From Bacteroidales bacterium (GTDB lineage Bacteria; Bacteroidota; Bacteroidia; Bacteroidales; GCA-2748055), in NCBI GenBank assembly GCA_016936975.1, contig JAFGWU010000039.1, positions 21,024 through 85,023 of the forward strand: 64,000 bases of DNA, given 5' to 3'. Below, in pieces: positions 19,300 through 47,549 of the stretch. The stretch's first letter is position 1. Each line of letters starts with the position of its first letter. A program made the position numbers and the translations under genes. A model generated the notes under the pieces. It had not been told where the DNA came from and searched no databases. It saw nothing but the letters and a program-made list of their open reading frames with translations.

Positions 19300-19323
19300 G
19301 ATTCCTATCTGCAGGCAGGAATC
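19300..19323. terminator. Inverted repeat between convergent genes (candidate bidirectional terminator)
   Basis: GATTCCT-N10-AGGAATC, 7-bp perfect arms, spanning the stop codon of the minus-strand GH127 gene and 16 bp past the SSS stop codon. Confidence 0.4.
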
Positions 19324-21368
19324 CAGACCGTCATTTCAGACTTTCCCCTGTTTCCCCATGCAAAATAGGGGATGAGCCGGATGATTAACGGAACGGGTTG
19401 TCGGTCGGATATTTCCCGGTAGAGTTCATCATCCCAATCGTCCTGATTTATGATTAAGGCCTCACCTTTAAGGCTGATTAATTGAGAACCATCTATTTCA
19501 ATCTTTTCAGGCGAAAGGTGAATATCTGCAGGGATTCCGATATCTGATACCCTGACATTTTGCGGTAAATCAGGGGATTCAAGGCAATAAACTATCGGGC
19601 CGCGCCGGACAGCAAGTTCGTTCCGTGTTTCTTCAACAAGCGGGTTGGATTCAATCAGTTTTGTCTTTACAGGGAGTTCGAGCCTGATTTTATCTCCTTT
19701 TCTCCAATTCTTTTCGATCGTCAGGTAAGTTCCGGGAACGACTGGTGTCTGGCATAACTGTTCATTGACATAAACCTTGCTTCCGTCTGCCCAGGAGGGT
19801 ATGCGCAATTTCAGGATGAGATTGTTGCGCGGGACCTCCTCGAGCGTTAACATAACAGTGCCTTCCCAGGGATAATCGGTTTCCTGGTGCAGTATGACCT
19901 TCGAACCGTCAGGCAGGTGTGTATCGAGATGGCTGGATCCGTACAGGTGGAACCATACAGTTCCCTCAGACAGTGAATAAAGATAATTATGTATTTCGGA
20001 GACCGTTCTTACAACATTGGGCGGGCAGCAATTGCACAGTGAAATATATTCCTCCCTTTCCTTGGACCACCTGAGGGTATAAGGAAGATCAAAATCCACC
20101 CTCAGGGGATTCGTATAAAAGTATCTTTTTCCATCCAGGCTGACTGCTGACAGGACGCTGTTATAAAGTGTCTGTTCGACCATCTCGGCATATTTGGCTT
20201 CTCCTGAAATCATCAGCATTCTCCAGTTCCACAGTACGCTGCCAATGTTGGCACAGGATTCATTATGCGCCGTGATGTTTGGTAACTGGTATGGCCGTCC
20301 ATAGGCCTGGTGCACCTGCTGGATGTAAGGCTGATTATAGGTTGTGCCGTCGGGGGATACCCCATCGTATAATGCCCCGCATCCGCCGGTAATGTATAGC
20401 TTGTGTTTGACGAGGTCGTTCCATATCATTTCAAGGGGCCGCAGAAGCGTTGTGTCACCTGTCTCAGCCACCAGGTCGGCCACACCGGCATACAAATAAT
20501 TTGCCCTGACTGCATGGCCAATGGCCTCTGTCTGTTCCCTGAACGGAATCCGGTCCTGATTGTGATCGGTTCCGTTTCTGACCATACGTCTGATATCTAT
20601 CAGGTTTCGCCCCAGGTCGAGATACTTTTTCTCCCCGGTAACCCGGTACAATTCAATTATCCCCATATAGTGGGAAGGACAGATGGCATTCTGGGCGAGT
20701 TCCTCCGGATCACGGTTGTAAAAATCAATCAGAAAATCTGCTGCTTTCACAGCCACGTTTAACAGGGTTTCCTTACCCGTAGCCCGGTAATGCAAACAGG
20801 CTGCCGTCATTAAATGTCCCATATTATAAGTCTCAAAATCGAGACGCTCCCTGAACTCGGCTTTCAGGTCATTGCCAGATCTTTTTCTCTGTTCGATGAT
20901 GACAGGTGTATGGATATAACCATCTTCTCTTTGTGATCCGGCGATGATCCTGATAATGTCATCCATCTGTTCATCCAGTTCCGGCTTTCGGGTTTGCATG
21001 TAAACTGAAACCAGGGATTCGAACCATTTGTAAAAGTCACCATCGTGAAAAGGAGGTCCGGAGTGATTTCCCTCTGCATGTCCCGCCGCAATCTCAAAGT
21101 TTCTGAATGCATGGCTGACATCCGCATCATTCAGGATGCTCCACATGAAGGGTACCATGGTATCCCTGCAGACGATAAAACGTTCAGCCCAGAATCCTGA
21201 TGTCAGGGCAACATCATTCCCGTTTACCCCCATCATCAGGGCAAATGGACTCCGGGAGTTATCTGCTGGTGCTTTGTCCTGTCCATTCAATAACAACGGA
21301 AAGACCAATAAAATGATTACGAAGGCGGGATTTGCAATGGTTACTGATTCCCTGTTCTTTGGATCCAT
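19305..21368 (-). CDS. GH127-like beta-L-arabinofuranosidase
   Basis: 'LTSGFWAERFIVCRDTMVPFMWSIL', 'HDGDFYKWFESLVSVYMQTRKPELDEQMDDIIRIIAGSQREDGYIHTP' and 'SLCNCCPPNVVRTVSEIHNYLYSLSEGTVWFHLYG' (Cys cluster). Confidence 0.85.
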   Translation of the reverse strand: MDPKNRESVTIANPAFVIILLVFPLLLNGQDKAPADNSRSPFALMMGVNGNDVALTSGFWAERFIVCRDTMVPFMWSILNDADVSHAFRNFEIAAGHAEGNHSGPPFHDGDFYKWFESLVSVYMQTRKPELDEQMDDIIRIIAGSQREDGYIHTPVIIEQRKRSGNDLKAEFRERLDFETYNMGHLMTAACLHYRATGKETLLNVAVKAADFLIDFYNRDPEELAQNAICPSHYMGIIELYRVTGEKKYLDLGRNLIDIRRMVRNGTDHNQDRIPFREQTEAIGHAVRANYLYAGVADLVAETGDTTLLRPLEMIWNDLVKHKLYITGGCGALYDGVSPDGTTYNQPYIQQVHQAYGRPYQLPNITAHNESCANIGSVLWNWRMLMISGEAKYAEMVEQTLYNSVLSAVSLDGKRYFYTNPLRVDFDLPYTLRWSKEREEYISLCNCCPPNVVRTVSEIHNYLYSLSEGTVWFHLYGSSHLDTHLPDGSKVILHQETDYPWEGTVMLTLEEVPRNNLILKLRIPSWADGSKVYVNEQLCQTPVVPGTYLTIEKNWRKGDKIRLELPVKTKLIESNPLVEETRNELAVRRGPIVYCLESPDLPQNVRVSDIGIPADIHLSPEKIEIDGSQLISLKGEALIINQDDWDDELYREISDRQPVPLIIRLIPYFAWGNRGKSEMTVWIPACR

Positions 21369-21382
21369 ATTTACGATGGTTG

Positions 21383-24190
21383 TTAATTAATATCAATACT
21401 GCTGTTGAACCGGTAATGGCCCGAACCCGCAATTACTTTTAAATATTCTCCGGTGTATTCAAGCACGGTTATATTTTCTGAATTCCTGAGTTCAGCGTCC
21501 GATTCCCTGACACTGCCGGGTTCAGCGGCCGGAATAAAAATTGTTGCTGTGGTATTTACAGGCACAGAGACGTTAAGATGAAGCGTGGTTCCTTTGACCT
21601 CCCATTTCGAGGAGAGGGTTCCGTAAGGTGTTTGATGGCTCCCGGATGCATAGGAGAGCCGTTCGGTTAAAACGGGTTTGATCACAGACTTTTTATAACC
21701 GGGGACCTCTTTTTCTCTCTGAATTCCTGCAATATTTTCATACATCCACTGTCCAATGGCCCCGTAGGCATAATGGTTAAAGGAATTCATCCCGGCATCC
21801 TGGAACGTGCTGTCCGGTTTAATTCCATCCCACCGCTCCCATATTGTGGTTGCCCCCATGGTAACAGGGTAGAGCCAGGAGGGGTACCTTTTATTGAAAA
21901 GTAAATTGTAAGCCAGATCCTGATAACCCGTATTCGAAAGCACATGACAGATTAACGGGGTTCCCAGGAATCCGGTGGTGATATGTCCGAAGTGTTCAAC
22001 ATCTGCCGCGAGCCTTTCTGCTGCAATGGTTTTGAACTCCTCCGGAACCAGGTCAAAACCAAGTGCCAGGGAGTAGGCGGCCTGTGTACCGGATACCAGC
22101 CTTCCTGTTTCGGTAAAAAATTCCCGGGCAAAGGCAGATTTGATTTTTGGAAGAATAGCTTTATAATGTTCAGCATCCTCATTGTGTCCAAGGATTTCAG
22201 CTATTTTTTGCAGGATCCCCGTTGAGTGGTAAAAATAGGCTGTTGCGATCAGATCTTTATCTGTATTGGCACCGGCATAGCCGTAATCCGGTGCATTGTA
22301 ATGGTAACTCATATATTCTGCAAATGCCAGCCAGTCGCCGAAGTGAAATCCATAGTCGAAGATATACCGCTCGCCTGCATGCCCGACCATATAATCAACC
22401 CAGGCTTTCATGGAATGGTATTGATCCCTGAGGATATTTTCATCGCCGTATATGAGATACATGTTCCATGGGATAAGAATGGCCGCATCGGACCATCCGG
22501 TGGCTCCGTAACCGTCGGACCAGCCTGTTCCGCCTCCGCCATCAACAATCATCGGGACCACCCATGGAACTGAACCATCCTCTTTTTGATCTGCCTCAAG
22601 ATCCTTCAACCATTTCCTGAAAAACGGAACTGTATTCATGTTGAAGGAAGCTGTAGGTGTAAATACCTGCGCATCGCCTGTCCATCCCATACGCTCATCA
22701 CGCTGTGGGCAGTCGGTGGGAATATCCAGGAAATTACCTCTCAGTCCCCATACAATGTTTTCCTGCAATTGATTGATAAGTGAATCAGAGCATTCGAATG
22801 TTCCAACCGGCTCCATATCGGAATGTATTACAATCCCCTGCAGGTCATCGCACGAAACCCGACCCGGATAACCTGAGATCCTTACATACCTGAACCCCTG
22901 GAAGGTAAAATGCGGTTCAAAATGTTCCACGCCTTCGCCTTTGAAGATATAGCGTACCTCCTGGTCTGCCTCACGGAGATTCTCCAAGTAAAAATTTCCC
23001 TCCTTATCAAGAACTTCTGCATGATGGAGCACGATCTCCGTTCCGGCCTCTCCCTTCAAAGCGAATTTTATCCATCCGACCATATTCTGTCCCATATCAA
23101 ATACCAGCTCCCCTGAGGGGGTGATTATCTGTTTCACCGGCTTGATGGTATCTGTGGCCCGGACGGGGACACTGACGGAGGGGACGAGATTAGAGAAACC
23201 GTGGTCTTTTTCAATGCAGTCAAACCATTTAAGATCCCTGTATCCCGGTTGATCCCAGCCGGTCAATTCAAGCCTGGCATCATATACCTCTCCGTCATAT
23301 ATTTCAGATTTCAATATGGGTCCGGAAGCGGATCGCCAGGATTTATCCGAGCAAATAACCTCATGTGATCCATCCTGGAAGGTGATTACCAGTTGCAGGA
23401 GCAATGCAGTTTTTTTACCATAGTGTTCTTTCTCCATTGTCCAGGCGAATGGTCCCCTGAACCAGCCGTCACCCAGTATGGCACCAATGGCATTATCGCC
23501 TTTATTGACGAGTTTAGTGACATTGTACACCTGGTATTGCAGTCTTTTATGATAACTTGTCCAGCCGGGGGTAAAGAGCTGGTCACTGACTTTTTTTCCA
23601 TTAAGGTGGACATGGTAAAGTCCATGAGCCGTCACATATAATTGCGCATTCCGGATTTTCTTCCCTGCATGAAATTCTTTCCTCAGGTATGCGGCTTTAT
23701 TGGGTTTGTTTTCCGCTTCCTCAACCCCCGGTTCAATCCATTCAGCTATCCAATCTTCATCATTCAGAAGTCCCATCTCCCAGAATGCCGGTTGGCTCCA
23801 TTCAGACCGGTTCCCCCTGTTGTCCTCAATTCTCACCTGCCAGTATATACGCTGGCCGCTTTTCAACGGTATCCCATCATAAGGAATGTTAATGGATTGT
23901 CCGGACATTACAATTCCTGATTTCCAGGTATGAGGGCCATCTTTGAGGGCTTCCTCCGTCAGTGCCGCTTTTATTTCATACGCTTTCTGAATTACACTGC
24001 GTTCTGAGGAGACAATCTGCCAGCTCAGGGCAGGTCTTATATTTTCAATTCCGACAGGATTGATCCTGTATTCACAGGTCAGGTTATGCACAGCCGGTCC
24101 GATACTTCCGGACTGGGCCTGAACAGAAATCATTAATGAAACAGCAATGGTAAGGAGTGCGATGCAATGGATGAGCTGTTGATTTTTCAT
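21383..24190 (-). CDS. GH78-like alpha-L-rhamnosidase (copy 1)
   Basis: 'LTCEYRINPVGIENIRPALSWQI', 'LGDGWFRGPFAW', 'IPTDCPQRDERMGWTGDAQVFTPTASFNMN' and 'TTIWERWDGIKPDSTFQDAGMNSFNHYAYGAIGQWMYENIAGI'. Start moved to the ATG at 24190. Confidence 0.95.
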   Translation of the reverse strand: MKNQQLIHCIALLTIAVSLMISVQAQSGSIGPAVHNLTCEYRINPVGIENIRPALSWQIVSSERSVIQKAYEIKAALTEEALKDGPHTWKSGIVMSGQSINIPYDGIPLKSGQRIYWQVRIEDNRGNRSEWSQPAFWEMGLLNDEDWIAEWIEPGVEEAENKPNKAAYLRKEFHAGKKIRNAQLYVTAHGLYHVHLNGKKVSDQLFTPGWTSYHKRLQYQVYNVTKLVNKGDNAIGAILGDGWFRGPFAWTMEKEHYGKKTALLLQLVITFQDGSHEVICSDKSWRSASGPILKSEIYDGEVYDARLELTGWDQPGYRDLKWFDCIEKDHGFSNLVPSVSVPVRATDTIKPVKQIITPSGELVFDMGQNMVGWIKFALKGEAGTEIVLHHAEVLDKEGNFYLENLREADQEVRYIFKGEGVEHFEPHFTFQGFRYVRISGYPGRVSCDDLQGIVIHSDMEPVGTFECSDSLINQLQENIVWGLRGNFLDIPTDCPQRDERMGWTGDAQVFTPTASFNMNTVPFFRKWLKDLEADQKEDGSVPWVVPMIVDGGGGTGWSDGYGATGWSDAAILIPWNMYLIYGDENILRDQYHSMKAWVDYMVGHAGERYIFDYGFHFGDWLAFAEYMSYHYNAPDYGYAGANTDKDLIATAYFYHSTGILQKIAEILGHNEDAEHYKAILPKIKSAFAREFFTETGRLVSGTQAAYSLALGFDLVPEEFKTIAAERLAADVEHFGHITTGFLGTPLICHVLSNTGYQDLAYNLLFNKRYPSWLYPVTMGATTIWERWDGIKPDSTFQDAGMNSFNHYAYGAIGQWMYENIAGIQREKEVPGYKKSVIKPVLTERLSYASGSHQTPYGTLSSKWEVKGTTLHLNVSVPVNTTATIFIPAAEPGSVRESDAELRNSENITVLEYTGEYLKVIAGSGHYRFNSSIDIN

Positions 24191-24230
24191 TGGTTTGTTT
24201 TTCAACGATTATAACGATTGAACGGTTCAT

Positions 24231-24344
24231 TTGCAAATCTAGCCCATTAAATTTATTTTTGCAATAAAACGTTTGCATACAGGAGATTTTGCTATTATTC
24301 TAAGATACACTATTTAAGTATTTTATAGACTGTAAACGTTAACA
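24231..24344. promoter_or_regulatory. Divergent regulatory region A: two LacI-type operators 67 bp apart plus a minus-strand Bacteroidota promoter
   Basis: AAACGTTT core centred at 24270/24271 and TGTAAACGTTAACA at 24331-24344. Minus-strand TTGC-N19-TAGATTTG. Ungapped 114-bp match to region B. Confidence 0.75.
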
Positions 24345-24366: not shown

Positions 24367-25029
24367 ATGAAAACTGTTGTTGCGATTCATACTGCCATGG
24401 CGATGGTTGAGCCGACAAAAGAATTATTTCAAAAGCATCTGCCCGGTGTAAGGCTGATAAATATTGTGGATGACAGTCTGATACAGGATGTGATCAGGGA
24501 TGGGGAAGTAAAGGCATCGGTTGAGAGCAGGATCCGGCTTTATTACCGGGCTGCTGTGGATGCGGGTGCTGATGTGATATTCAATACCTGTTCCTCGGTT
24601 GGAGAGGTGGCTATCGCTGCGAGAAAAACCCTCCCGGTTCCCCTGGTTAAAATTGATGATGCAATGGCCCGCAAAGCTGTTAAGGAGTATAAAAAGATCG
24701 GTGTAATGGCTACCCTTTCCACAACGCTGAATCCCACCATCAAGCTGATCTCTCGTTTCGCCAGGGAGATGTCTGCTGATGTTACCGTTACAGAAGGACT
24801 TGTTGATGGCGCTTTTCAGTCATTGATGGATGGGAACCTGGATGATCACGATCAGAAGGTCCTTAACAAAGCTCAGGAAATATCTTCGCAGGTGGATGTG
24901 ATTTTGCTTGCCCAGGGTTCCATGGCCAGGGTGGAGAATACCATCATTGCCAGGACCGGTAAGCCGGTCCTTACAAGTCCTTTACTGGGTGTTCTGGAGG
25001 TGAAATCCACACTTGAGCAATTAAATTAA
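24367..25029 (+). CDS. Asp/Glu/hydantoin racemase-like protein
   Basis: 'DVIFNTCSSVGEVA' and 'KKIGVMATLSTTLNPT' are Asp/Glu racemase superfamily-like. The second expected Cys position reads 'LLAQGSMAR'. Confidence 0.7.
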   Translation: MKTVVAIHTAMAMVEPTKELFQKHLPGVRLINIVDDSLIQDVIRDGEVKASVESRIRLYYRAAVDAGADVIFNTCSSVGEVAIAARKTLPVPLVKIDDAMARKAVKEYKKIGVMATLSTTLNPTIKLISRFAREMSADVTVTEGLVDGAFQSLMDGNLDDHDQKVLNKAQEISSQVDVILLAQGSMARVENTIIARTGKPVLTSPLLGVLEVKSTLEQLN

Positions 25030-25035
25030 TCTGTT

Positions 25036-26274
25036 TTGAAAAAGAGAAATATTGTTCTGATCCTGTTGATGATTGTAGGAGTCATCACCTTTCTCGACAG
25101 GATTAACATCAGTGTTGCCGGTGCCAGTATCATGGAGGATCTTGGTTTGTCGGGCAAGCAATGGGGATGGATTCTGAGTGCATTTATCCTGTCTTACGGT
25201 TTACTGCAGGTCCCACTCGGTGCCTGGGGAGATCGGGCCGGACAGCGCAAGGTACTTTCGTTCATAGTACTCTGGTGGTCCCTCTTTACCATCCTTACAG
25301 GATTTGCCAATGGATTCATCATGCTGATTATTGTCCGGTTTTTATTTGGAATCGGTGAAGCCGGGGCCTACCCGAACATGACCGGTACGGTAGGCAGGTG
25401 GTTTCCCGGGAAAGAGACTGCCAAAGCACAGGGCTTTCTCTGGGCGGCCAGCCGAATCGGTGGTGCACTGACCCCGTTGATTGTGATCCCTGTCATTATA
25501 AACCTGGGGTGGCGGATGGCATTCTATATTCTCGGGGCATTGGGATTTATCTGGGTTATTGTCTGGTTCGCGTGGTTCAGGGATTTTCCTGCACAGAAAA
25601 AGGGTATCTCCCGGCAAGAACTTGACGAGATAGGGAATAGTGAGGTTAGAGCAGAAAAAATAAAGATTCCCTGGAAATCCATTTTACGAAAGAACCAGTT
25701 CTGGATTTTGCTGGGGATGTATTTTTTCTATGCATGGGGGAGCTGGTTTTTCTTTTCATGGTTCCCTGTATTTATGGAAGAGGGCAGGGGATTTGCCAAA
25801 AGTGAGCTCACCTATGCCGTGGCCGTTCCTTTTCTGTTCAGTGTGATCGGTAACATCTCAGGGGGATATATAAGCGACAGGCTTTCCCTGAAATACGGAG
25901 TAAGAATCGGCAGGAAGGCAGTTGGAGTGTCGGCCCTGATAATTTCTTCCATATTGATGTTTCTTGCGGGATTCATCCCCGGGAAGATACAGGTATTTAT
26001 CTTTCTTTCCCTCTGTTTCGGAATCTTTGACCTGATGCTTCCGGCGGCATGGGCCATCTGCCTGGATATCGGAAAGAAATTCGGAGGCGCTGTATCGGGT
26101 GCCATGAATACGGCAGGAAATATCGGGGGATTCCTGTGCGCGTTAATGTTCGGGTACCTGGTTGATCTAACGGGAAATTATAATTTTCCGCTCTATGTGA
26201 TTGCCTTTATGCTCTTAATAAGTGCCATCCTGTTCTCGTTTATCGATCCGACACGGAAACTGGTGGAAGATTGA
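25036..26274 (+). CDS. MFS transporter (anion:cation symporter / hexuronate-type)
   Basis: 'VITFLDRINISVAGASIMEDLGLSGKQWGWILSAFILSYGLLQVPLGAWGDRAGQRKVL', 'FLFGIGEAGAYPNMTGTVGRWFP'. TTG start. Confidence 0.9.
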   Translation: MKKRNIVLILLMIVGVITFLDRINISVAGASIMEDLGLSGKQWGWILSAFILSYGLLQVPLGAWGDRAGQRKVLSFIVLWWSLFTILTGFANGFIMLIIVRFLFGIGEAGAYPNMTGTVGRWFPGKETAKAQGFLWAASRIGGALTPLIVIPVIINLGWRMAFYILGALGFIWVIVWFAWFRDFPAQKKGISRQELDEIGNSEVRAEKIKIPWKSILRKNQFWILLGMYFFYAWGSWFFFSWFPVFMEEGRGFAKSELTYAVAVPFLFSVIGNISGGYISDRLSLKYGVRIGRKAVGVSALIISSILMFLAGFIPGKIQVFIFLSLCFGIFDLMLPAAWAICLDIGKKFGGAVSGAMNTAGNIGGFLCALMFGYLVDLTGNYNFPLYVIAFMLLISAILFSFIDPTRKLVED

Positions 26275-26287
26275 TTTTCGGAATTAT

Positions 26288-27697
26288 CTAAACAAGCTTT
26301 TTAAACAATTCTGAGAGAGAACCGGTCCCTCCCACATTGCCGGGAAATATGATAAAGGGTATTTTGCGGCCTTTTTCTTCATATCTTATTTTTAATACCG
26401 GAACGCCGGGCAGGATCTGCCCTGAAACGGTCGAAGAAGTTACATTCAGTCCGTCCACAAGAATATCGTGTGAAGTGATTCCTCCTTTCGATACAATATA
26501 GGAAGGAGAGATCGGGAGCTGTTTTATGACGGATGCAAGGAAACCGGATATTTTCCGTCCGCTATGAACGGCCGCATCCATGTTTTCTGACCGGAGTTCT
26601 TTCCTGGTAGTGTAAAGGGCAGGTGTTTTGTCCCTGTTGAACGCATGTACCAGGGCATTCATGGTTTGTTTGAAACAGGTTTCCTCATCCTGCAATATTT
26701 GCATCACATCGATTTCAATTCCTTCAACCTCCGAGTTTTCAAGCAATTCATTCAATTGACGGGTGGTCCTGGGAACATGCGAGCCGATCACAAAAATCCC
26801 TTTTGAACCGCCTGTCCCGAGTTCCTGTCCGGTAAGCAAATCTTTGTCGGGGATACCGCTCAGCGCTTTTGGCAGGGAGGAGGAAGTTCTCATAATGATT
26901 GCCCGGTCGGCCGGGCCCATCATTTCGGTTAATGCAAAACTGAACCTGTGGAGATCAGGGTATTCAACTGCATTAATAATAAGGAACCTGCGGCCGGAAA
27001 GGGATGTAATTTTTTCTTGTAGTTCCGGGGATTCAAGTTTCCTCAACTCTTCCAGGGAAATAGATCCAATCTTTTTTCTGCTCAATGTCCCGGCCGATTT
27101 TTCTATTATATAATCTGTCAGGTTGGAGTTTTTGTAACCAAAAAGCGTGTCGCGTGCAAATTCACTCCGGGCGACCGGAAGGAGATTGTCTCCCTCGACC
27201 ATGTATTGAATATTCCCTGCAGTGATTCTTCCCGCCTCAAGAAGGGCAGGTACAAAGAAAACCGGAAGTTCAACCTCAATATTATGCTCGTGAAGTTTTT
27301 CCAGGATGGCGTCTGTTTCAAGGGGAAAGTGTCCCCTGAGAGTGGAATCGCTCCTGCTGATTATGATAAGTTTATAATGGCAGGACTCATTAGCCCGAAT
27401 GAGCGATTCAACAATCTCGAGGTTAAGTTTCCGGGCAATCTCGGGACTCCGGGATCTTGAGTTTGAGAGTATGTACAGAAGGTGGGAATTGCCCTGCAGG
27501 GCTTTCTTAACAAGGGTGACACTCCATTTTGTCAGCAGCGTGCATCCATGGACGGTCTGGATACCCGTCGGATCATCGTCAATGACGAAAATTTTTGCTC
27601 TTTTCTTTTCAAGGTTTTCCGAAATACGATACCTGATATTGCCCGTCTGAACGGAGGGAACCTTTTTGATGATATCGGAAAGATATTGATAAATCAC
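26288..27697 (-). CDS. Four-carbon acid sugar kinase family protein (DUF1537, OtnK/DtnK/OiaK-like)
   Basis: 'IFVIDDDPTGIQTVHGCTLLTKW', 'SRSDSTLRGHFPLETDAI', 'VSKGGITSHDIL' and 'IFPGNVGGTGSLSELF' are DUF1537 hallmarks. Confidence 0.9.
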   Translation of the reverse strand: MIYQYLSDIIKKVPSVQTGNIRYRISENLEKKRAKIFVIDDDPTGIQTVHGCTLLTKWSVTLVKKALQGNSHLLYILSNSRSRSPEIARKLNLEIVESLIRANESCHYKLIIISRSDSTLRGHFPLETDAILEKLHEHNIEVELPVFFVPALLEAGRITAGNIQYMVEGDNLLPVARSEFARDTLFGYKNSNLTDYIIEKSAGTLSRKKIGSISLEELRKLESPELQEKITSLSGRRFLIINAVEYPDLHRFSFALTEMMGPADRAIIMRTSSSLPKALSGIPDKDLLTGQELGTGGSKGIFVIGSHVPRTTRQLNELLENSEVEGIEIDVMQILQDEETCFKQTMNALVHAFNRDKTPALYTTRKELRSENMDAAVHSGRKISGFLASVIKQLPISPSYIVSKGGITSHDILVDGLNVTSSTVSGQILPGVPVLKIRYEEKGRKIPFIIFPGNVGGTGSLSELFKKLV

Positions 27698-27718
27698 AAT
27701 CAGTTAATTAAATAATAT

Positions 27719-30469
27719 TCAATCTGTTTTGATGATCTTGCCTGTAACCGTTGAATAATTAAATAATACCCGGTAGAAATAAATGCCCGGATCAAGCGAT
27801 TCGGGAACCCAGGGCATGGTGTGACTGCCTGCCGGCATCTGTCCGCTGTAAAGATTTTCGACCAAACGACCGTCGACATTGAAGACCTGAATATCCAGAT
27901 TTCCGTTTTGAGGAAGATCAACCTGTAGTCTCATATGATCCCTGAACGGATTTGGATAGACGTTTACACTGAACTGGCCGCTGGTTGCTGATCCCGGTCT
28001 TTCTGTTGTTGCGAAATCCATATCGAATTCAGCCATGGTAAGAGCAGACCAGGTATTGTTACTGAATGCCCTGGCTTTAATCACTGTATTTTTATCAATA
28101 TAGACAGGATTGGAATAGAGCGTGGCAAATTCAGAGGTTCCTCCACCGATTTGTCTAGGGTCGTTGTCATCGGCAGCATAGTAAATATCTCCTGTTTCTG
28201 CAAATATTTCCAGATTTAACGGTTCTGATATCTCCCCGCCATAATGACTGAAGGTTGGTGCATCGATATCGGGGTAGAGTCCTTCATTCCTGAACTGCTG
28301 AAAAACGATATCCGAACGGTCGGGAAAATAATCCGATAAAAGGGCATTTTTTGCTACCAGCCAGTGGTCGTTTCTGGTATAAAGTTCTGCCACCTCATCC
28401 CGCGGTTGCACATCCCTCCGATAATCCCCCCACCTTGCACTTTCCGTAATAACAGCCATGTCCAGTTCATTTGCCAGTTCATTGAAACGATCAGCCGTGA
28501 CTGTGGCAGTCATTGCGCCTCCATCGAAGAAATGAGCCCTGAGGTGATCGGCAAAGCGCAGCCTGAACTCCTCATTTTGTTTCAGTTCTTTATATATGGT
28601 TGTGGGTTCACCCTGTATGTCATCAACCATGTTTACACTTTTATCCGTCAGGGAATTTTCCGCATCCCAGCTGAAAAATCTGAAACCAGCATCGTTCCTG
28701 ACCCTGTTTCTGGCTGCCAGCCAATTATTGTGATCCCAGTCGTTGTTACCTATATAAACATTTAAAATGATGTAATTTATCAGGTTATCCACGTCCAGCA
28801 GGTTTGAATACCCTGCATTCAGGGTTCCATCGGCATTTCTTCCCTGGATCCTGAAATATGCAGTATTGTCGGACAGGCCGCCACCCACCTGTGCCATTAA
28901 TTGATTCCAGGCTATCTGGTTTCCGTCCACCACATCATTATGGTCCTTCACCATATCATAATCCTCTTCCTTTCCGCCCCAATAAGATTCAGTAAAATCG
29001 TTATTCACTTTTTCCGTTACGCAATATACGCCCCAGTAAAGGCTATTCAGATACAGATGCACAAATTTGTTATGAGGAGAGAGATCTCCCATATCAAGCT
29101 GACTGTTTTTGGCGAATGGATCCTGGAGAAATGTAGTATTGATGCGCTGACTGACATTGTTATGCATCCACGAATAATTATATCCTGACCTCAGGATTAA
29201 CGTGTTAAAGTCATTGGTTGCATCACGATCGTCTGTAAAAAAATTATAGTTCAGCCTGGTTGGCCCGAATTCGCTTCTGAAGACTAGCCTGAAGGAGTGT
29301 TTCTGGCTGTTTTCAGGCACTCTGCTGTTTCCACCGTGGAGTTTGATCCCGCAGTTTATTTGAAAATCCGAATGGTTTTCCGGATCAAGATATTCCAGGG
29401 ATATTTGTCGTTCCCAGTCAATCCCCAGGGCACCGGCCCCTGAACTTCCGGTATAGATATAAATCCCGCCGCTTTCGGGGTCATCACTGTGTGAGAAAAT
29501 ATTCCCCGGATCGGTTACGACGGATAATGTTGGTATCGATGTAAGGGCTGTTTCCATCAGGAGAGCATAACCAGGGTCATTACAAACCTCCGGGTCCATT
29601 TCGTAGTCGGAGGGTGCATTGCCATCTGAAAATTTTAAGGGGCTCCATTCCTGCGGGTATCCTTCCGGATCATCGGGTTGTTGAAGAATATCTTCTATAA
29701 ACAGATAGGTATGGGTAATTACATCGCTGTACTGGCCGCTGTTAGTTACCGCAACTGCACTTAAGGGAGTTGTGGTTCCGATCTGGATGGGAGTGCTGTA
29801 TAAAGTACCGTTCAAACTGTTGGGGCGGCTGCCGTCAGTCGTATAATAGATAGCCAGATTTGCATCTGCCACTGAAAGCTGAACTTCAAAAGGCCCTTCA
29901 TAAAATCCCCTGCCTTTGCTGAAAACAGGAGTAAATACCTGGTTCCCGAGGGTGTTTTCACTTCCGGGTGTTGGTGTCTCCATAAAAGTGTGCTGGGAGG
30001 ATATTATTCCGTAAGAAACATCCTGTCTCTGGACCGGAAAGGTTGGCCCGTAGGAGTATGAGATTGTCCTGCCGTCAGGCTCTGTTAAAGCCAGGTATTC
30101 TCCCGAACCGGATAGTTTAAAGCTGGTGTGCAGGTTATTTGACGGATTGATCCTGTTTTTACCCGAGGCATAAATTACAAGGTATTCCCCTGCAACAATG
30201 GTAATATCCGGAAAGGTCCATTTATTCAGATTACCGGCATTATCGGTCAGATACCACCCCGTTAAATTAATATCGGATGATCCGGGATTATGGATTTCAA
30301 GCCAATCCGGGTAATCTCCGTCCTCATCCTGGAGTGTGGAACCGTTTATGGCCATGAACTCACTGATAAGTAATTTATGAGTGTCCGCAGCATAGAGGAG
30401 GTTTGAAATTGTCACTCCTGTTATTATTGTTAATATTCCCAGGTAATTTCTTTTAGTTTTCTTAAACAT
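27719..30469 (-). CDS. Lamin-tail domain plus CotH-kinase-like domain, chitobiase/FN3-like segments and T9SS sorting domain
   Basis: 'LLISEFMAINGSTLQDEDGDYPDWLEIHNPGSSDINLTGWYLTDNAGNLNKWTFP' (lamin tail). 'LHGGNSRVPENSQKHSFRLVFRSEFG...YLNSLYWGVYCVTEKV' (CotH). 'VYPNPFRDHMRLQVDLPQ' (T9SS). Start moved to the ATG at 30469. Confidence 0.85.
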   Translation of the reverse strand: MFKKTKRNYLGILTIITGVTISNLLYAADTHKLLISEFMAINGSTLQDEDGDYPDWLEIHNPGSSDINLTGWYLTDNAGNLNKWTFPDITIVAGEYLVIYASGKNRINPSNNLHTSFKLSGSGEYLALTEPDGRTISYSYGPTFPVQRQDVSYGIISSQHTFMETPTPGSENTLGNQVFTPVFSKGRGFYEGPFEVQLSVADANLAIYYTTDGSRPNSLNGTLYSTPIQIGTTTPLSAVAVTNSGQYSDVITHTYLFIEDILQQPDDPEGYPQEWSPLKFSDGNAPSDYEMDPEVCNDPGYALLMETALTSIPTLSVVTDPGNIFSHSDDPESGGIYIYTGSSGAGALGIDWERQISLEYLDPENHSDFQINCGIKLHGGNSRVPENSQKHSFRLVFRSEFGPTRLNYNFFTDDRDATNDFNTLILRSGYNYSWMHNNVSQRINTTFLQDPFAKNSQLDMGDLSPHNKFVHLYLNSLYWGVYCVTEKVNNDFTESYWGGKEEDYDMVKDHNDVVDGNQIAWNQLMAQVGGGLSDNTAYFRIQGRNADGTLNAGYSNLLDVDNLINYIILNVYIGNNDWDHNNWLAARNRVRNDAGFRFFSWDAENSLTDKSVNMVDDIQGEPTTIYKELKQNEEFRLRFADHLRAHFFDGGAMTATVTADRFNELANELDMAVITESARWGDYRRDVQPRDEVAELYTRNDHWLVAKNALLSDYFPDRSDIVFQQFRNEGLYPDIDAPTFSHYGGEISEPLNLEIFAETGDIYYAADDNDPRQIGGGTSEFATLYSNPVYIDKNTVIKARAFSNNTWSALTMAEFDMDFATTERPGSATSGQFSVNVYPNPFRDHMRLQVDLPQNGNLDIQVFNVDGRLVENLYSGQMPAGSHTMPWVPESLDPGIYFYRVLFNYSTVTGKIIKTD

Positions 30470-30498
30470 GCCAAATAATAAATAGAAAAGAAATGAAT

Positions 30499-31320
30499 TC
30501 AACTTCCCAGCAATTCCCTGTATTCTGAAGGGGTCATGATATCACCTCCCATTGAAATTACCAGGTTGGCGATCTCTTCAACCAGGATGGAATTGTGTTC
30601 GGCGATTTTTCCCTGTCTGTAATAAAATGAATCTTCAAAGCCCACTCTCAAAACGGTTGTTCCCATGGCAATGGCTCCGGCCAGAAATGAGAAATCCACC
30701 ATTCCGTCATGGGTTAATCCCCAGTGTGCTCCAGTCTCAACAAGTGAAGAAATAAAAGTAAGGTTTCTCATATCTGCCTTCAATGCTCCTTTGATTCCAA
30801 AGCAGAAGTTAAAATGGAGCGGGCGCTCCAGAACCCCTTCGTTTGCGAGTTGAATGCTGGTTTCCACCATGCTCACATCAAAACACTCCAGTTCAGGCAC
30901 TACTAAGGTTTCCTTCATTCTTTTTGCCCAGTAACGTATATCCGGAAGGGTATTGATATATACCTCCTCTCCGAAGTTAATGGACCCCATATTCAATGAT
31001 GCTACTTCAACCCGGGGATCGGTCAGACAAACAGAACGTTCTTCAAGAGAGAGTTCCGCCAGCCCTCCTGTGGATCCCTGGATGACGATATCGGAACCGG
31101 CAGTGATCAGATCGAGTGTCCGGCTGAATTCCTTCATTTCGGAAGTTTGGCGGCCCTTTTCATCCCTTACATGAAGATGGACCATGCCGGCTCCTTTTTC
31201 TGCGCAGGCGATGACCTCCTCAGCTATTTCTTCAGGTTTCAGGGGGTTATTACAGCGATTCGGTACCGGTTTCCCGAAATGGCTTACCGGAGCCACAGTG
31301 ATCAGTACTTTTTTATTCAT
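30499..31320 (-). CDS. BKACE family (beta-keto acid cleavage enzyme, DUF849)
   Basis: 'LITVAPVSHFGKPVPNRCNNPLKPEEIAEEVIACAEKGAGMVHLHVRDEKGRQTSE' is the BKACE signature with the HLH metal site. Confidence 0.9.
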   Translation of the reverse strand: MNKKVLITVAPVSHFGKPVPNRCNNPLKPEEIAEEVIACAEKGAGMVHLHVRDEKGRQTSEMKEFSRTLDLITAGSDIVIQGSTGGLAELSLEERSVCLTDPRVEVASLNMGSINFGEEVYINTLPDIRYWAKRMKETLVVPELECFDVSMVETSIQLANEGVLERPLHFNFCFGIKGALKADMRNLTFISSLVETGAHWGLTHDGMVDFSFLAGAIAMGTTVLRVGFEDSFYYRQGKIAEHNSILVEEIANLVISMGGDIMTPSEYRELLGS

Positions 31321-31363
31321 AGAAATAATGATGAAATGTGAAAAAGATTGGCATCATATTAAT

Positions 31364-31477
31364 TTGCAAATCTATTGGTTTAAAATTATTTTTGCAATAA
31401 AACGTTTGCATTTATTGCACGAAGATGCAATTTTAAGATATTGGAAATGAGATTATAATTAAATGTAAACGTTAACA
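31364..31477. promoter_or_regulatory. Divergent regulatory region B: two LacI-type operators 67 bp apart plus a minus-strand Bacteroidota promoter
   Basis: AAACGTTT core centred at 31403/31404 and TGTAAACGTTAACA at 31464-31477. Minus-strand TTGC-N19-TAGATTTG. Ungapped 114-bp match to region A. Confidence 0.75.
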
Positions 31478-31524: not shown

Positions 31525-34257
31525 ATGAAAAAAACCGGAATCATTTCTTTTTTTCTGCTTTTGATTATTCTGCTGGCAGGTTGCGGCAAACCAAAAAATG
31601 TCATTATCATATCAGGTAATGATGATCCGAAAACCCGCTTTGGAGTGGAATGGCTTTCCGCCAGGTTAGCTGAAGCAGGCTTCTCGGTAGAGGTTCGTAA
31701 TACCCCGGCCGACACTGTTCATCATTCAATCATTATCGGATTGAAAAAAGATGCTCTGGTAGACGAATTTCTCAGGACAGAAACCCTCGATTCGGTTCTG
31801 CTATGCGATAATCAGGAGGGATATACGCTGATTTCGGGAAGGTCCCGGACCATAATAGCGGGGAATGATCCTTCAGGAACACTCTATGGATGCATCGAGC
31901 TTGCAAACAGAATAAAGGAAAACGGAATAATTCCTGAGATAACATTTTCGGATTATCCCGGAATGGTTTTACGTGGTGCGTGTGTCGGTCTGCAAAAAAC
32001 AGAATACCTTCCGGGCAGGGGTGTTTATGAATATCCTTATACGCCTGAGAACTTCCCATGGTTCTATGATCAGGAATTATGGATACGCTACCTGGACATG
32101 CTTGTGGAGAACAGGTTCAATGCATTGTTCCTCTGGAACGGTCATCCGTTCGCATCATTGGTGCGTCTGGAAGATTATCCTTATGCTGTTGAAGTGGACA
32201 GCGTCTCTTTCAGAAAGAATCAGGAAATCTTCAGGTTTCTGACTCTTGAGGCCGAAAAACGTGGTATCTGGGTTATACAGATGTTCTATAATATAATTGT
32301 ATCAAAACCCTTTGCTGAGAAACACCAGATTAGAACCCAGGATCGATCCCGTCCAATTACGCCCTTGATATCCGATTATACCCGAAAATCTGTTGCGTCA
32401 TTCATTGAAAATTATCCGAACGTTGGTTTAATGGTTTGCCTTGGGGAGGCAATGAATACTTATGAGGACGATGTTGAGTGGTTTACCGGAACCATTATTC
32501 CGGGGATCAGGGACGGATTGGAATCAATCGGCAGTGATGTTGAACCCCCTCTGATCCTGAGAGGCCATGATACCGATGCAAAAATGGTTATGGAAGCTGC
32601 TTTGCCCCTCTATCATAATCTTTATACCGTCTACAAATACAACGGAGAGTCCCTGACAACCTACACTCCAAGGAATTCGTGGGCCGATATTCCTATGGCG
32701 CTCAGTGAACTCGGTTCCGTTCATATTTCAAACGTTCATATTCTGGCCAACCTTGAACCGTTCCGGTATGGATCTCCGGATTTTATCCAGAAAAGTACCA
32801 TTGCAATGCATGAAATACAGGGAGCAAACGGATTGCATCTCTATCCTCAGACCTCATACTGGGACTGGCCCTATTCTGCAGATAAAGTGGACGGGCGTTT
32901 GCTTCAGATTGAGCGGGACTGGGTATGGTACAAAGCGTGGGGCAGATATGCATGGAACAGTTACCTCGAGCGGGAGAAGGAAGCAGATTACTGGAGCAAG
33001 CAGTTTGAAAGTTATTATGGATGCAGGGGATATGGCAGGGAGATTCTCAAAGCCTATGAGGAAACTGGTGAAATTGCGCCGAAGCTTTTAAGAAGATTTG
33101 GTATTTCCGATGGGAACAGGCAGACTCTGATGCTGGGGATGTTTATGAGTCAGCTCGTTAATCCTTATAAGTACACAGTTTATGAAAGTTTCCTGAATTC
33201 AAACGGACCAGAGGGTGAGATTCTTATTGATTATGCCAGGAAGGAGTTTCATAACGAACCGCATAACGGTGAAACGCCGCCACAGATAATACAAGAGGTA
33301 ATGGATCATGCCGCTTCTGCCATTGAAGCCATTGAAAAAGCAGCTCCTCATGTTACCAACAATATCGAAGAGTTCGAAAGGCTCAGGAATGATATATTCT
33401 GCTACAGGGATATAGCCGGTTTTTACGCGGACAGGGTTAAAGCAGCCATGTTGATTTTGAGATACAGGTACTCCAGGGATCCGGAGGATCTCAAATCCGC
33501 TTTGCCGTTTATAGAGGCAAGTTTGCAGACATTCAAAGACCTTTCAGATAGAACCGAAGGCACTTATTTGTACGCGAACAGCATGCAGACTGCCCAGAGA
33601 AGGATCCCCATTTCCGGAAGAGATGGGAAAAATAAGACATGGAGCGAGTTGCTGGTTCATTATGAAGAGGAGATGGAAATATTTAACAGGAATGTTCAGA
33701 TGTTATCCGGTGAACCGGATTCTCAAGCAACCCGGAATTATGAAACCCTTATTCCTGCGCGGATAAAAGTTTTGGAGCCTGAACCGGAATGGTTCAAATA
33801 TGAAATGGGACAACAGGTATATTCCGACCGGAATTTCAGGATAGAAGCGTTTGCTCCTGAGTTGTTGAATCTGGAGGGTCTGAAACTTTCAATGGAGAGG
33901 CAGGTGAAAGAGGGCACCAGGATAAGGTTCAGAAATGAAGAACCGGTGAAGGTGCTGGTCGGTTATTTTAACGGGCACAGCTACTCCATCCTGTCACCCC
34001 CAACACTTGAAACCAATGCTAATGCGAATGATCGCGGACAGGCGGATATAAAAATAGCGAATGGATTGCATATTCCCGGGCTTTATCCTGTAAACATTTA
34101 CACGTATCTGTTTGAACCGGGGGAGAATATCCTGGAGCTGGGTGCCGGCAGGGTGATGGTACTGGGTTTTATGGATGGAAACCAACAGATCAGGGTTCGT
34201 GATGCTGGAATTGGAAGTGAAGAGGAGGAATTGCCCATCGATTGGTTATTCTATTAG
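31525..34257 (+). CDS. Alpha-glucuronidase-like lipoprotein (GH67-related fold, atypical)
   Basis: Lipobox LAGC. N-terminal 'SARLAEAGFSVEV...IIAGNDPSGTLYGCIELANRI' resembles GH67/GH20 N-terminal domains. TIM-barrel 'DMLVENRFNALFLWNGHPFASLV'. Confidence 0.65.
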   Translation: MKKTGIISFFLLLIILLAGCGKPKNVIIISGNDDPKTRFGVEWLSARLAEAGFSVEVRNTPADTVHHSIIIGLKKDALVDEFLRTETLDSVLLCDNQEGYTLISGRSRTIIAGNDPSGTLYGCIELANRIKENGIIPEITFSDYPGMVLRGACVGLQKTEYLPGRGVYEYPYTPENFPWFYDQELWIRYLDMLVENRFNALFLWNGHPFASLVRLEDYPYAVEVDSVSFRKNQEIFRFLTLEAEKRGIWVIQMFYNIIVSKPFAEKHQIRTQDRSRPITPLISDYTRKSVASFIENYPNVGLMVCLGEAMNTYEDDVEWFTGTIIPGIRDGLESIGSDVEPPLILRGHDTDAKMVMEAALPLYHNLYTVYKYNGESLTTYTPRNSWADIPMALSELGSVHISNVHILANLEPFRYGSPDFIQKSTIAMHEIQGANGLHLYPQTSYWDWPYSADKVDGRLLQIERDWVWYKAWGRYAWNSYLEREKEADYWSKQFESYYGCRGYGREILKAYEETGEIAPKLLRRFGISDGNRQTLMLGMFMSQLVNPYKYTVYESFLNSNGPEGEILIDYARKEFHNEPHNGETPPQIIQEVMDHAASAIEAIEKAAPHVTNNIEEFERLRNDIFCYRDIAGFYADRVKAAMLILRYRYSRDPEDLKSALPFIEASLQTFKDLSDRTEGTYLYANSMQTAQRRIPISGRDGKNKTWSELLVHYEEEMEIFNRNVQMLSGEPDSQATRNYETLIPARIKVLEPEPEWFKYEMGQQVYSDRNFRIEAFAPELLNLEGLKLSMERQVKEGTRIRFRNEEPVKVLVGYFNGHSYSILSPPTLETNANANDRGQADIKIANGLHIPGLYPVNIYTYLFEPGENILELGAGRVMVLGFMDGNQQIRVRDAGIGSEEEELPIDWLFY

Positions 34258-43800: not shown

Positions 43801-44868
43801 ATGAGCGGAAAATGGAAGGAAAACTGGGAGGAATCCAGGAAGAACTATATCGATTGGTGGAATGGTACCGGGCTGGTCATCAGTATGTGGGAACACATGG
43901 AAAAAGAGGGTGAACCGGTTGAAAATGTCCTCCCGCCGGAACCACCGACAAACATTGAGCACTACTGGTTTAATCCCGGTTGGAGGGCAAAAAATATTCA
44001 TTACAGCCTGTCAAAAAGTGTTTTAAAAGCGGATATCCCCCCCGTGGCAAATACGCATCTCGGACCGGGTTCTCTTGCAGCTATACTGGGAGCTGAACTG
44101 GAAGGAGGGGAAGATACGATCTGGATCAGGAAACCCGGAAACTTTGATCCGGAAATAAAACTGAATGAAAACAACAGCTACTGGTTACTGCACCAGGAGC
44201 TTCTAAAATCCTGCCGCAAATACGCAGAAGATAAATATTATGTGGGCATGCCTGACCTTGTAGAAGGCCTTGATGTTTTGGCAAGCCTGAAGGGGACTGA
44301 TGAGACCCTTATGGATATGATCCTGTATCCTGAAAAGACCGCTGAACAGTTGCAGAAAATAAATGATATCTATTTAGAGGTATTCAACCGTTTGTATGAC
44401 ATTATAAGGGTTGGTGATGAAATGGCATTCTGCTATTTTTCATTATGGGCACCCGGAAAAACTACAAAAATTCAGTCCGACATTTCCGTGATGATCTCTG
44501 AGGAGGATTTCCGGAAGTTTGCCCAACCCTATTTCCGTGAACAGTGCCGGAACATAGAATATACGCTTTATCATCTTGATGGTGTGGATGCCATCCGGCA
44601 CCTGGATGCCATCCTGGAGATTGAGGAGCTTAAGGCAGTCCAGTGGACACCAGGCTACGGCCAGCCGCAGGGCGGTGACTCAGGATGGTACAACCTTTAT
44701 AAAAGAATAAAATCCGCCGGCAAGTCAGTAATGCCCTGCTGGGTGACTGTGGAGGAGATGGAACCCTTGCTGGATTATGTCGGCCCGGAGGGAATGAATA
44801 TCCTGATGGATTTCAGGTCGGAAAAGGATGTTGACAGGGCACTGGAAATAAGGGAACGTTATCGGTGA
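43801..44868 (+). CDS. Uroporphyrinogen decarboxylase (URO-D)-like protein, HLDG variant
   Basis: 'TLYHLDGVDAIRHLDAILEIEELKAVQWTPG' and C-terminal 'GMNILMDFRSEKDVDRAL' are URO-D-like. Confidence 0.75.
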   Translation: MSGKWKENWEESRKNYIDWWNGTGLVISMWEHMEKEGEPVENVLPPEPPTNIEHYWFNPGWRAKNIHYSLSKSVLKADIPPVANTHLGPGSLAAILGAELEGGEDTIWIRKPGNFDPEIKLNENNSYWLLHQELLKSCRKYAEDKYYVGMPDLVEGLDVLASLKGTDETLMDMILYPEKTAEQLQKINDIYLEVFNRLYDIIRVGDEMAFCYFSLWAPGKTTKIQSDISVMISEEDFRKFAQPYFREQCRNIEYTLYHLDGVDAIRHLDAILEIEELKAVQWTPGYGQPQGGDSGWYNLYKRIKSAGKSVMPCWVTVEEMEPLLDYVGPEGMNILMDFRSEKDVDRALEIRERYR

Positions 44869-44890
44869 TGTTTATAATATAATTCCTAAA

Positions 44891-46480
44891 ATGATTGACA
44901 TTCACGAATTATTGAGACCAGTTGATTTCATAGTTGTAGGTATTTATTTTGTTACCATCATTTTTATCGGGTACTGGGTTAGTTTTATTCAGAAAAGAGA
45001 AGAGAATGAGAACCTGTTTCTTGCAGGCCATTCCCTGAAGTGGCACAGCATCGGGCTGACGATGTGGGGGACCAATGTAGGACCATCCATGCTGATCGCT
45101 TCCGCCAGTATCGGGTACACGACCGGGGTCGTCGCCGGAAATTTCGGCTGGTATGCTTTTCCCTTCATTCTCCTGCTGGCCGTGGTTTTTGCACCCCGTT
45201 ACCTGGGCGCCAAAGTGCAGACATTACCTGAATTCATGGGGAAACGGTTCGGAAAATCCTCCCGGAACATACTCGCCTGGTACAGCCTCGCAACCATCCT
45301 GATCTCCTGGCTCTCACTGACTCTTTTTGCAGGGGGAATTCTTGTCAGCCAGATTCTCAATGTTCCGATCTGGCTTTCCGTTATGATACTGGTGCTGGTT
45401 TCCGCTTTTTTTACCATCGCCGGGGGATTGAAAGCCATTGCATATACCAATGTATTTCAAATGCTGCTCCTGATAGGCGTGTCTTTTGCGCTTACGGTGG
45501 TGGGTGTTTCCAAAGCTGGCGGAATTATGGCTATCTATGAAAATACCCCTCCAAATTACTGGAACCTTTTTTTACCGATGGATGATCCAAACTATCCGTG
45601 GCTCGCCATTCTGCTTGGTTATCCGGTCATGGGTATCTGGTTCTGGTGCACCGACCAGTCCATGGTCCAGTCGGTTCTGGGAGCAAAAAATCTTACGCAG
45701 GGCCAGCTGGGGGCAAATTTTACGGGATGGCTCAAGATTCTGGATGTCGCCCTCTTCATTATTCCGGGTATCATCTGCTTTATCCTTTTTCCTGACCTGA
45801 AGGACCCCGATGAGGCTTACATGACCATGGTAACCCGCCTTTTTCCGGCAGGCATGACCGGTCTTGTAATGGCCGTGCTGATTGCCGCACTTGTTAGCAC
45901 CATCGATTCGGCATTAAACTCCCTCAGCACAGTATTTACAGTGGATATCTTTATTGAAAGATTCAGGCCCGGAGCAGACCAGAAGCAGATCATAAAAATA
46001 GGAAGGATTGTTACCCTGGTCGGAGCTGCTCTGGCTATTCTTATCACATTGGCCATTAATAATATTCAGGGGCTTAACCTGTTCGATGTTTTTCAGGCCG
46101 TACTCAGTTTTCTTGCCCCGCCAATGTCAGTGGTGTTTTTGCTGGGGGTTTTCTGGAAAAAGGCAACTGCAAGAGCTGCCAATTTTGTCCTTTCATTCGG
46201 AACCATCTTCAGTATTGGAACCGGTATCTTATATCTGTGGGTATTCCCGTCTGATAAATATGATTTCTGGCCCCATTTCCTTTTGCTATCCTTCTTTATC
46301 TTTATATTTCTGATGGTGGTTTCGATCATTATAGTCCTGGCTGACAAAAGGGCAGGAGAGAAGGATCAGAACCAGCTCGATTTTGGCAGGTTATCCAAAC
46401 CACCCCGGAAAGTTTGGATTTTCTGGTCTGCCTTAATCATTGTGATGGTTATGTTGTATATTTTATTTAATGGACATTGA
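44891..46480 (+). CDS. Sodium:solute symporter (SSS family)
   Basis: Many TM segments. 'LFLAGHSLKWHSIGLTMWGTNVGPSMLIASASIGYTTGV', 'AGGLKAIAYTNVFQMLLLIG' and 'IAALVSTIDSALNSLSTVFTVDIF'. Confidence 0.92.
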   Translation: MIDIHELLRPVDFIVVGIYFVTIIFIGYWVSFIQKREENENLFLAGHSLKWHSIGLTMWGTNVGPSMLIASASIGYTTGVVAGNFGWYAFPFILLLAVVFAPRYLGAKVQTLPEFMGKRFGKSSRNILAWYSLATILISWLSLTLFAGGILVSQILNVPIWLSVMILVLVSAFFTIAGGLKAIAYTNVFQMLLLIGVSFALTVVGVSKAGGIMAIYENTPPNYWNLFLPMDDPNYPWLAILLGYPVMGIWFWCTDQSMVQSVLGAKNLTQGQLGANFTGWLKILDVALFIIPGIICFILFPDLKDPDEAYMTMVTRLFPAGMTGLVMAVLIAALVSTIDSALNSLSTVFTVDIFIERFRPGADQKQIIKIGRIVTLVGAALAILITLAINNIQGLNLFDVFQAVLSFLAPPMSVVFLLGVFWKKATARAANFVLSFGTIFSIGTGILYLWVFPSDKYDFWPHFLLLSFFIFIFLMVVSIIIVLADKRAGEKDQNQLDFGRLSKPPRKVWIFWSALIIVMVMLYILFNGH

Positions 46481-47549
46481 TTACCCATTGACGAAATGTG
46501 AAATGAAAACCGGAATGACACACAAAGACAGATTCCTTGCAACCATTCAGAATGAGGTTGTTGACAGACCTGCATCATGGCTGGGACTCCCTGTTCCGTC
46601 CGCTGAGCCTGCACTTATGAGCCATTTTAATGTGCAATCGATGCATGAATTGAAATTGAGGCTCGATGATGATATTTACCCGATTGAAGTACCGTATGAT
46701 TTTCCTCCGGCTAATCATATCGCATGTGCCTTCAATTTTGCCAAAGAGGAGCACAGAGGCAGGCCCGATGAGAGAACCCTGACAACCCCTGGCTTTTTTG
46801 AAGACTACAATGATCCTTCCGATGTGGATAAGTTCGACTGGCCGGATCCCGAACGATACCTTGACAGGAAAGAATCCGCCAGGCTGGCACGTTCCATTGA
46901 TGACAGCTACTGCCGGATGGGAATACTGTGGAGTGCCCATTTTCAGGATGCCTGCTCGGCATTCGGAATGGAACTGGCCCTGATGAATATGATGATCAAT
47001 CCGGATATATTCAGGGCGGTTATTGACAGGATAACACAGTTCTACCTCAGAGCCAATGAACTGTTTTATGATGCCACAAAGGGATACCTCGATGCGGTCC
47101 TTATAGGGAATGACTTTGGAGGACAGAAAGGACTTTTGGTTGATCCCCAATCTATCAGGGAATTTGTTTTTCCCGGCATAAAACTGCTCATCGACCAGGC
47201 AAAAAGTTACGGGCTGAAGGTTATGTACCATTCCTGCGGATCCATCTTTCCCTTAATTCCAGATTTTATCAATCTGGGGGTCGATGTAATTCATCCCATC
47301 CAGGCACTGGCGACCGATATGTCGGTTGAACATATGCACGATAATTTTGCTGGGAAAACGGCTTTCTGCGGAGGAATTGATGCGCAGTATCTTCTGGTGG
47401 AGGGAACCCCCGGGGAGGTGTTCAAAAGGGTTCAGGAGGTGAAAGGATTATTCCCGACAGGTTTGGTTATTTCTCCAAGCCACGAGGCGGTCCTGCCGGA
47501 TATACCTCCGGAGAATATAGAAGCAATGTTTAATTCCATAAAGACTTAA
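46470..47549 (+). CDS. URO-D/MtaA-like methyltransferase-family protein with HxCG motif
   Basis: 'KDRFLATIQNEVVDRPASWLGLP', 'VMYHSCGSIFPLIPDFINLGVDVIHPIQ' and 'TAFCGGIDAQYLL'. The true start may be the ATG at 46503 or the ATG of MTHKDR. Confidence 0.8.
   Translation: MDIDYPLTKCEMKTGMTHKDRFLATIQNEVVDRPASWLGLPVPSAEPALMSHFNVQSMHELKLRLDDDIYPIEVPYDFPPANHIACAFNFAKEEHRGRPDERTLTTPGFFEDYNDPSDVDKFDWPDPERYLDRKESARLARSIDDSYCRMGILWSAHFQDACSAFGMELALMNMMINPDIFRAVIDRITQFYLRANELFYDATKGYLDAVLIGNDFGGQKGLLVDPQSIREFVFPGIKLLIDQAKSYGLKVMYHSCGSIFPLIPDFINLGVDVIHPIQALATDMSVEHMHDNFAGKTAFCGGIDAQYLLVEGTPGEVFKRVQEVKGLFPTGLVISPSHEAVLPDIPPENIEAMFNSIKT

Follow-up and report, generated by a model that had tools for sequence, protein, structure and literature searches.

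Four promoters in the genome of a Bacteroidales bacterium carry two palindromic operators each, always 67 bp apart from centre to centre. We suggest that these are the paired operators of a LacI-family protein encoded on the same contig, C73, which would repress a regulon by which pectin-type, uronate-containing glycans are taken up and degraded; judged from the DNA sequence, this explanation as a whole is probable. The arrangement is a real and fairly conventional gene switch. Its regulon is new and its fixed 67-bp spacing is unusual.

Operator pairs in the window and in the genome

The window is a stretch of 64,000 nucleotides (C73:21024-85023) from a Bacteroidota assembly of 3.48 Mb that is about 90% complete; positions given without a contig or locus name refer to it. 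Region A lies between a GH78 gene (minus strand) and a racemase-like gene (plus strand). Its operator 1, ATAAAACGTTTGCA, occupies 24264-24277 on the plus strand, with the core AAACGTTT at 24267-24274 and the centre at 24270/24271. Operator 2, TGTAAACGTTAACA, follows at 24331-24344 on the same strand (centre 24337/24338) and is palindromic at 12 of 14 positions. The initial annotation had described two palindromes 67 bp apart at this place, and all its coordinates as well as the 12 symmetrical positions were confirmed. Region B, flanked by a BKACE gene (minus) and an alpha-D-galacturonidase gene (plus), contains the same two sequences on the plus strand, ATAAAACGTTTGCA at 31397-31410 and TGTAAACGTTAACA at 31464-31477, again at 67 bp. 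Both 14-mers are even palindromes with CG in the centre, the hallmark of the LacI family (PMC4052901). Symmetry and central CG agree with the LacI-type assignment made earlier, and the operators almost certainly belong to this type.

We counted occurrences in the genome by pattern searches and by individual examination of stretches. The exact 14-mer occurs twice in 3.48 Mb, both times inside the window; with three mismatches allowed, the window holds 12 matches where 2.9 are expected. A pattern of two operators separated by 53 bp has four exact matches genome-wide, without any mismatch, and the reversed pattern, searched as a control in the same genome, has none. When AAACGWT pairs were allowed any spacing from 52 to 82 bp, 11 were obtained, and the four at exactly 67 bp are the promoter pairs. 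Besides regions A and B, these are a third promoter at C73:6533-6611, directly after lacI and before an operon of Fe-ADH, DHDPS-like, PdxA-type, DUF1537 kinase and SSS symporter genes, and a fourth on the minus strand of contig C23 (26865-26943), before a susC/susD operon. In the latter promoter, an overlapping third site, TGTAAACGTTAACGTAAACGAT, is situated about 12 bp past operator 2 (L026, 8863-8875), a spacing similar to the 13 bp published for overlapping sites.

Single sites within two mismatches of the consensus number about 43 in the genome. Most of them (35, one at a frame edge) are inside long open frames; of the eight intergenic ones, six belong to the four paired promoters or to the lacI promoter. 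Given the paired matches against an empty control and this concentration of intergenic sites, the motif is not equally frequent in random intergenic DNA, an outcome that the initial annotation had named as fatal to its proposal. The paired sites are far beyond chance. A single AAACGTTT octamer is expected about once per window, and isolated AT-rich palindromes without function might arise in this way; four exact pairs at one spacing against none in the control, the intergenic placement and the conservation in two relatives (G304 and G086, see below) make such an accident scarcely conceivable for the set as a whole. Two candidates were put aside. The site at 34089-34102 lies inside the alpha-galacturonidase frame, and a tight pattern that demands GTAAACGWTAAC twice recovers just one of the four own pairs and has no match in 343 other genomes.

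Promoter layout

On the plus strand of region A, a putative -33 box TTTG (24230-24233) is followed after 20 nucleotides by a putative -7 box TATTTTTG (24254-24261), 9 nt before the operator-1 centre. The corresponding boxes of region B are TTTG at 31363-31366 and TATTTTTG at 31387-31394. Aligned on operator 1, all four own promoters keep one register: TTTG or TTGA, 19-20 nt, TAnnTTTG, 9 nt, operator-1 centre, 67 bp, operator-2 centre. The -7 box reads TATTTTTG in three of them and TACATTTG in one. Thus each of the four carries, in its sequence, the TAnnTTTG element and the TTTG-like -33 element of primary-sigma promoters in Bacteroidota, and this box consensus is the published one (PMC7366714). 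In F. psychrophilum, the -7 box covers -12 to -5 (PMC9723704); the same position here would put operator 1 on the predicted start site and operator 2 around +70 in the leader. We therefore read operator 1, with good but not full confidence, as located at the plus start site.

The initial annotation had instead connected operator 1 with the -33 element of a promoter on the minus strand, directed towards GH78. The putative boxes TTGC-N19-TAGATTTG are present exactly as claimed, with TTGC at 24264-24261 and TAGATTTG at 24241-24234, and TTGC overlaps the operator-1 14-mer by one base. Region B has its putative minus -7 box TAGATTTG at 31367-31374. In both regions the boxes of the two strands coincide: TTTGCAAATCTA comprises the plus -33 and the minus -7 box, TATTTTTGCAA the plus -7 and the minus -33 box. 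The predicted minus promoter is the mirror half of a face-to-face promoter pair. Because the two non-divergent promoters lack it, it does not unite the set; the overlap seen in the sequence stands, and what all four share is the plus promoter. A main role of TTGC-N19-TAGATTTG at operator 1, with operators that mainly coordinate divergent promoters, would suit the exact box pair in A and B and the presence of TTGG-N19-TAGCTTTG at the same place in G304, before a divergent transporter-like gene. It fits poorly with the two of four own paired promoters (after lacI and before susC) that are non-divergent and have the plus promoter only, and with G086, where the next gene upstream is unrelated and about 1 kb away. 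We consider it rather unlikely. A search by eye for a second promoter between the operators, or for an antisense promoter upstream of operator 2, yielded none that was consistent.

Candidate regulator and its relatives

Four genes in the genome encode a LacI-type DNA-binding domain. The best candidate, lacI at C73:5481-6476 (331 aa; PF00356, E 1e-20), is located 15.5 kb upstream of the window on the same contig. Its own promoter holds TGAAAACGTTATCA at C73:5322-5335, so that it is a LacI-family gene of the kind that the initial annotation had proposed to look for elsewhere. The own palindromes of other LacI genes differ (CGCAAACGATTGCG on contig C7, TGCAATCGATTGTA on C66), and the upstream sequence of the third one, on C21, has no such palindrome. 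The lacI promoter of C7 (L005) contains two overlapping sites, GCAAACGATTCCGCAAACGATTGC. Among solved structures, C73 LacI is closest to CcpA, RbsR and PurR (for CcpA, PDB 1rzr and 1zvv, E 4e-59). It aligns to residues 5-328 of the 360 of E. coli LacI, and in this alignment the LacI-type tetramerisation helix is absent. From its sequence, the protein looks like a dimer.

We searched 344 genomes of the order for orthologs. True ones (66-72% identity) exist in only three others, G304, G030 and G086, all from other families; the remaining regulator matches in the order are below 40% identity. In the three ortholog genomes, without exception, TGTAAACG-type sites precede lacI. In G086 and G030, lacI heads the same operon, with Fe-ADH, DHDPS, PdxA, DUF1537, SSS and SusC/SusD genes. 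An operon of lacI, Fe-ADH, DHDPS-like, PdxA-type, DUF1537 kinase, SSS symporter and SusC/SusD genes is kept in three families (L023, i.e. C73, 5481-12577; L202, 534-7610; L200, 217-7336).

The alpha-galacturonidase gene is present in 15 genomes. Its orthologs in G304 and G086 are preceded by an operator pair at 69 bp. Operator 1 of G304 is the very 14-mer of regions A and B, with no clear TAnnTTTG before it in that promoter. G086 keeps the block TTTGCAAATCTAT...TTGCAATAAAAACGTTTACAT around the operator, and its promoter reads TTTG-N19-TAACATTG, then 10 nt to the operator-1 centre. In G030 the gene follows an SSS gene within an operon, and one would not expect it to have a promoter immediately upstream. 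Altogether, the pair precedes alpha-galacturonidase in three of four genomes with the regulator and in none of the 11 without an ortholog (Fisher p 0.009). The best single site in these 11 matches at 10 of 14 positions and the best pair at 19 of 28, against 12-13 and 22-25 in genomes with the regulator. Regulator and paired sites are kept together across relatives, as a phylogenetic footprint. The pair is not kept at every promoter, since G086 has only a single site between lacI and the Fe-ADH gene. In G130, a genome without the ortholog, one copy of CTGAAACGTTTAAA stands 36 bp upstream of alpha-galacturonidase and follows a TACTTTTG box at 12 nt (L213, 1465); it perhaps serves another LacI protein.

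Some leads were abandoned. Apparent pairs at 67-68 bp in the lacI promoters of G030 and G086 were rejected, with the second site falling in the first lacI codons. The collection-wide regulator search yielded only relatives of at most 40% identity and no clear signal for pairs in their flanks, where the score of the flank scan is permissive and its reports are mostly noise. The spacing pattern in 40 relatives was dropped as a test of conservation, because it was mostly background.

Taken together, these data point to C73 LacI as very likely the protein that binds the paired sites. One may object that the genome has four LacI-family genes and that this MAG, about 90% complete, may lack yet another regulator; the sites would then be occupied by a second LacI protein or by a member of another family recognising AACGTT palindromes. 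We find this improbable, as two of the three remaining LacI genes have different palindromes of their own and C21 has none, and as paired sites precede alpha-galacturonidase only in genomes with an ortholog of C73 lacI. The single LacI-family repressor that had been postulated for both divergent regions is retained in so far as C73 LacI probably serves A and B alike; the layout centred on the minus promoter is revised.

Proposed repression, known systems and regulon content

In the absence of inducer, a repressor dimer on operator 1 would cover the transcription start and exclude RNA polymerase, as the layout and general knowledge of LacI-family repressors suggest. In regions A and B, this dimer would also border the minus -33 box, so that a single operator could silence transcription both ways. 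Repression would be strengthened by another dimer, bound to operator 2 some 70 bp inside the leader, most likely via dimer-dimer contact across a short loop of about six helical turns in vivo; otherwise operator 2 may act as a roadblock for elongation. As inducer we envisage a sugar-acid breakdown product.

The distance of 67-69 bp is constant over diverged spacers, which suggests that the two sites act together, and selection on the spacing is likely. A gal-type loop would ask for a whole number of helical turns between the operators; the distance corresponds to 6.4-6.6 turns at 10.5 bp, and to about six turns at the 10.95-11.6 bp per turn that were fitted in vivo for lac loops (PMC1762422). 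As C73 LacI has no tetramerisation helix, a loop would need contact between dimers, as in gal. Looping itself is a possibility that we put forward with reserve. Operator 2 might equally act with no contact between the two sites, as an additional lock or a roadblock, with a spacing inherited from one copied ancestral promoter. The dimer-like regulator would agree with this. So would the promoter/operator-1 block conserved between regions A and B, which may therefore be copies rather than independent cases, and the weak residual similarity of the spacers (24-26 of 52 positions in three pairs against about 17 expected); common descent may thus explain part of the constant spacing. Spacing that is free should drift, yet 67-69 bp is found in three families despite diverged spacers. 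We regard action without contact as a serious contender, to which we would grant somewhat less than an even chance. If the sites do act in concert, one can imagine, still more tentatively than the loop, that a dimer-type LacI uses a spacing-locked pair as a standard promoter cassette, with a very short loop made without the tetramerisation helix, kept across families and reused throughout the regulon.

Several known systems are similar in part. Bacillus CcpA, the closest solved relative, regulates globally and has HPr as its co-repressor; C73 lacI instead sits in a local sugar-acid operon. In E. coli lac, tetrameric LacI binds the main operator O1 at the start site and auxiliary operators. The predicted layout resembles it in having a main operator at the start site and an auxiliary one, but the C73 protein stops at the position that corresponds to LacI residue 328. 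E. coli GalR, like C73 LacI, is devoid of the tetramerisation helix and loops OE and OI by direct dimer contact, in a 113-bp loop with HU (PMC4693257). The gal promoters are inside that loop, whereas here the distance is 67-69 bp, one operator would cover the start site with its partner lying further downstream, and the loop is only putative. A survey of the LacI family found tandem sites upstream of about 20% of regulated operons, at spacings that peak at 13, 22 and 32 bp (PMC4052901; Ravcheev et al. 2014). Such regulons are alike in CG-centred even palindromes, autoregulated lacI and sugar-catabolic operons; the fixed 67 bp found here (69 in relatives) is not among the peaks. Finally, the Bacteroides uronate regulators KdgR, UxaR, UxuR and UxmR (PMC3878776), compared by description rather than by sequence, have phylum, family and galacturonate/glucuronate control in common with our case. 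The regulon proposed here differs in that it includes alpha-galacturonidase and BKACE as well as a PdxA-type dehydrogenase and two DUF1537 kinases.

The left unit of region A consists of a GH78-type alpha-L-rhamnosidase (21383-24205, minus) and, next to it, GH127 (19305-21368). The right unit encodes an Asp/Glu racemase-family protein (24367-25029, plus) and an MFS transporter (25036-26274, plus), whose best NCBIfam match, below the cut-off, is a galactonate-transporter subfamily. To the left of region B are BKACE, a beta-keto acid cleavage enzyme (30499-31320, minus), and, further along, a DUF1537-type four-carbon acid sugar kinase (26288-27697, minus). To the right is alpha-D-galacturonidase (31525-34257, plus; NF049878, above the cut-off). 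Further members come from the lacI operon: Fe-ADH, a DHDPS-family protein, a PdxA-type dehydrogenase, another DUF1537 kinase and an SSS symporter. This content points to pectin-type glycans plus a sugar-acid catabolic branch, and the conserved combination in the lacI operon suggests that a sugar-acid pathway, so far uncharacterised, is attached to a pectin locus. The racemase-family protein and the galactonate-type MFS (24367-26274) have paired-operator promoters in common with the DUF1537 kinase and BKACE (26288-31320), hinting that the four belong to one pathway. Our literature search found no paper joining BKACE or DUF1537 with galacturonate.

Two further observations concern neighbouring genes. 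A T9SS-secreted CotH/LTD/Fn3 protein (27719-30502), unlike its neighbours, is encoded between BKACE and the kinase. Elsewhere in the window, a uroporphyrinogen-decarboxylase-like protein is followed by an SSS symporter (43801-47549), an arrangement that is kept in G030, where it adjoins alpha-galacturonidase (L230, 19-2707).

If our reading is right, a switch is identified for an apparently uncharacterised regulon that combines uptake of pectin-type glycans (SusC/SusD, alpha-galacturonidase, rhamnosidase) with an unusual group of acid-catabolic enzymes. Co-regulation ties BKACE, DUF1537 kinases and the PdxA-type dehydrogenase to one testable pathway. Repressors of Bacteroidota are little studied, and the fixed pair at 67-69 bp lends itself naturally to a test of short-loop repression by LacI-family proteins that lack the tetramerisation helix.
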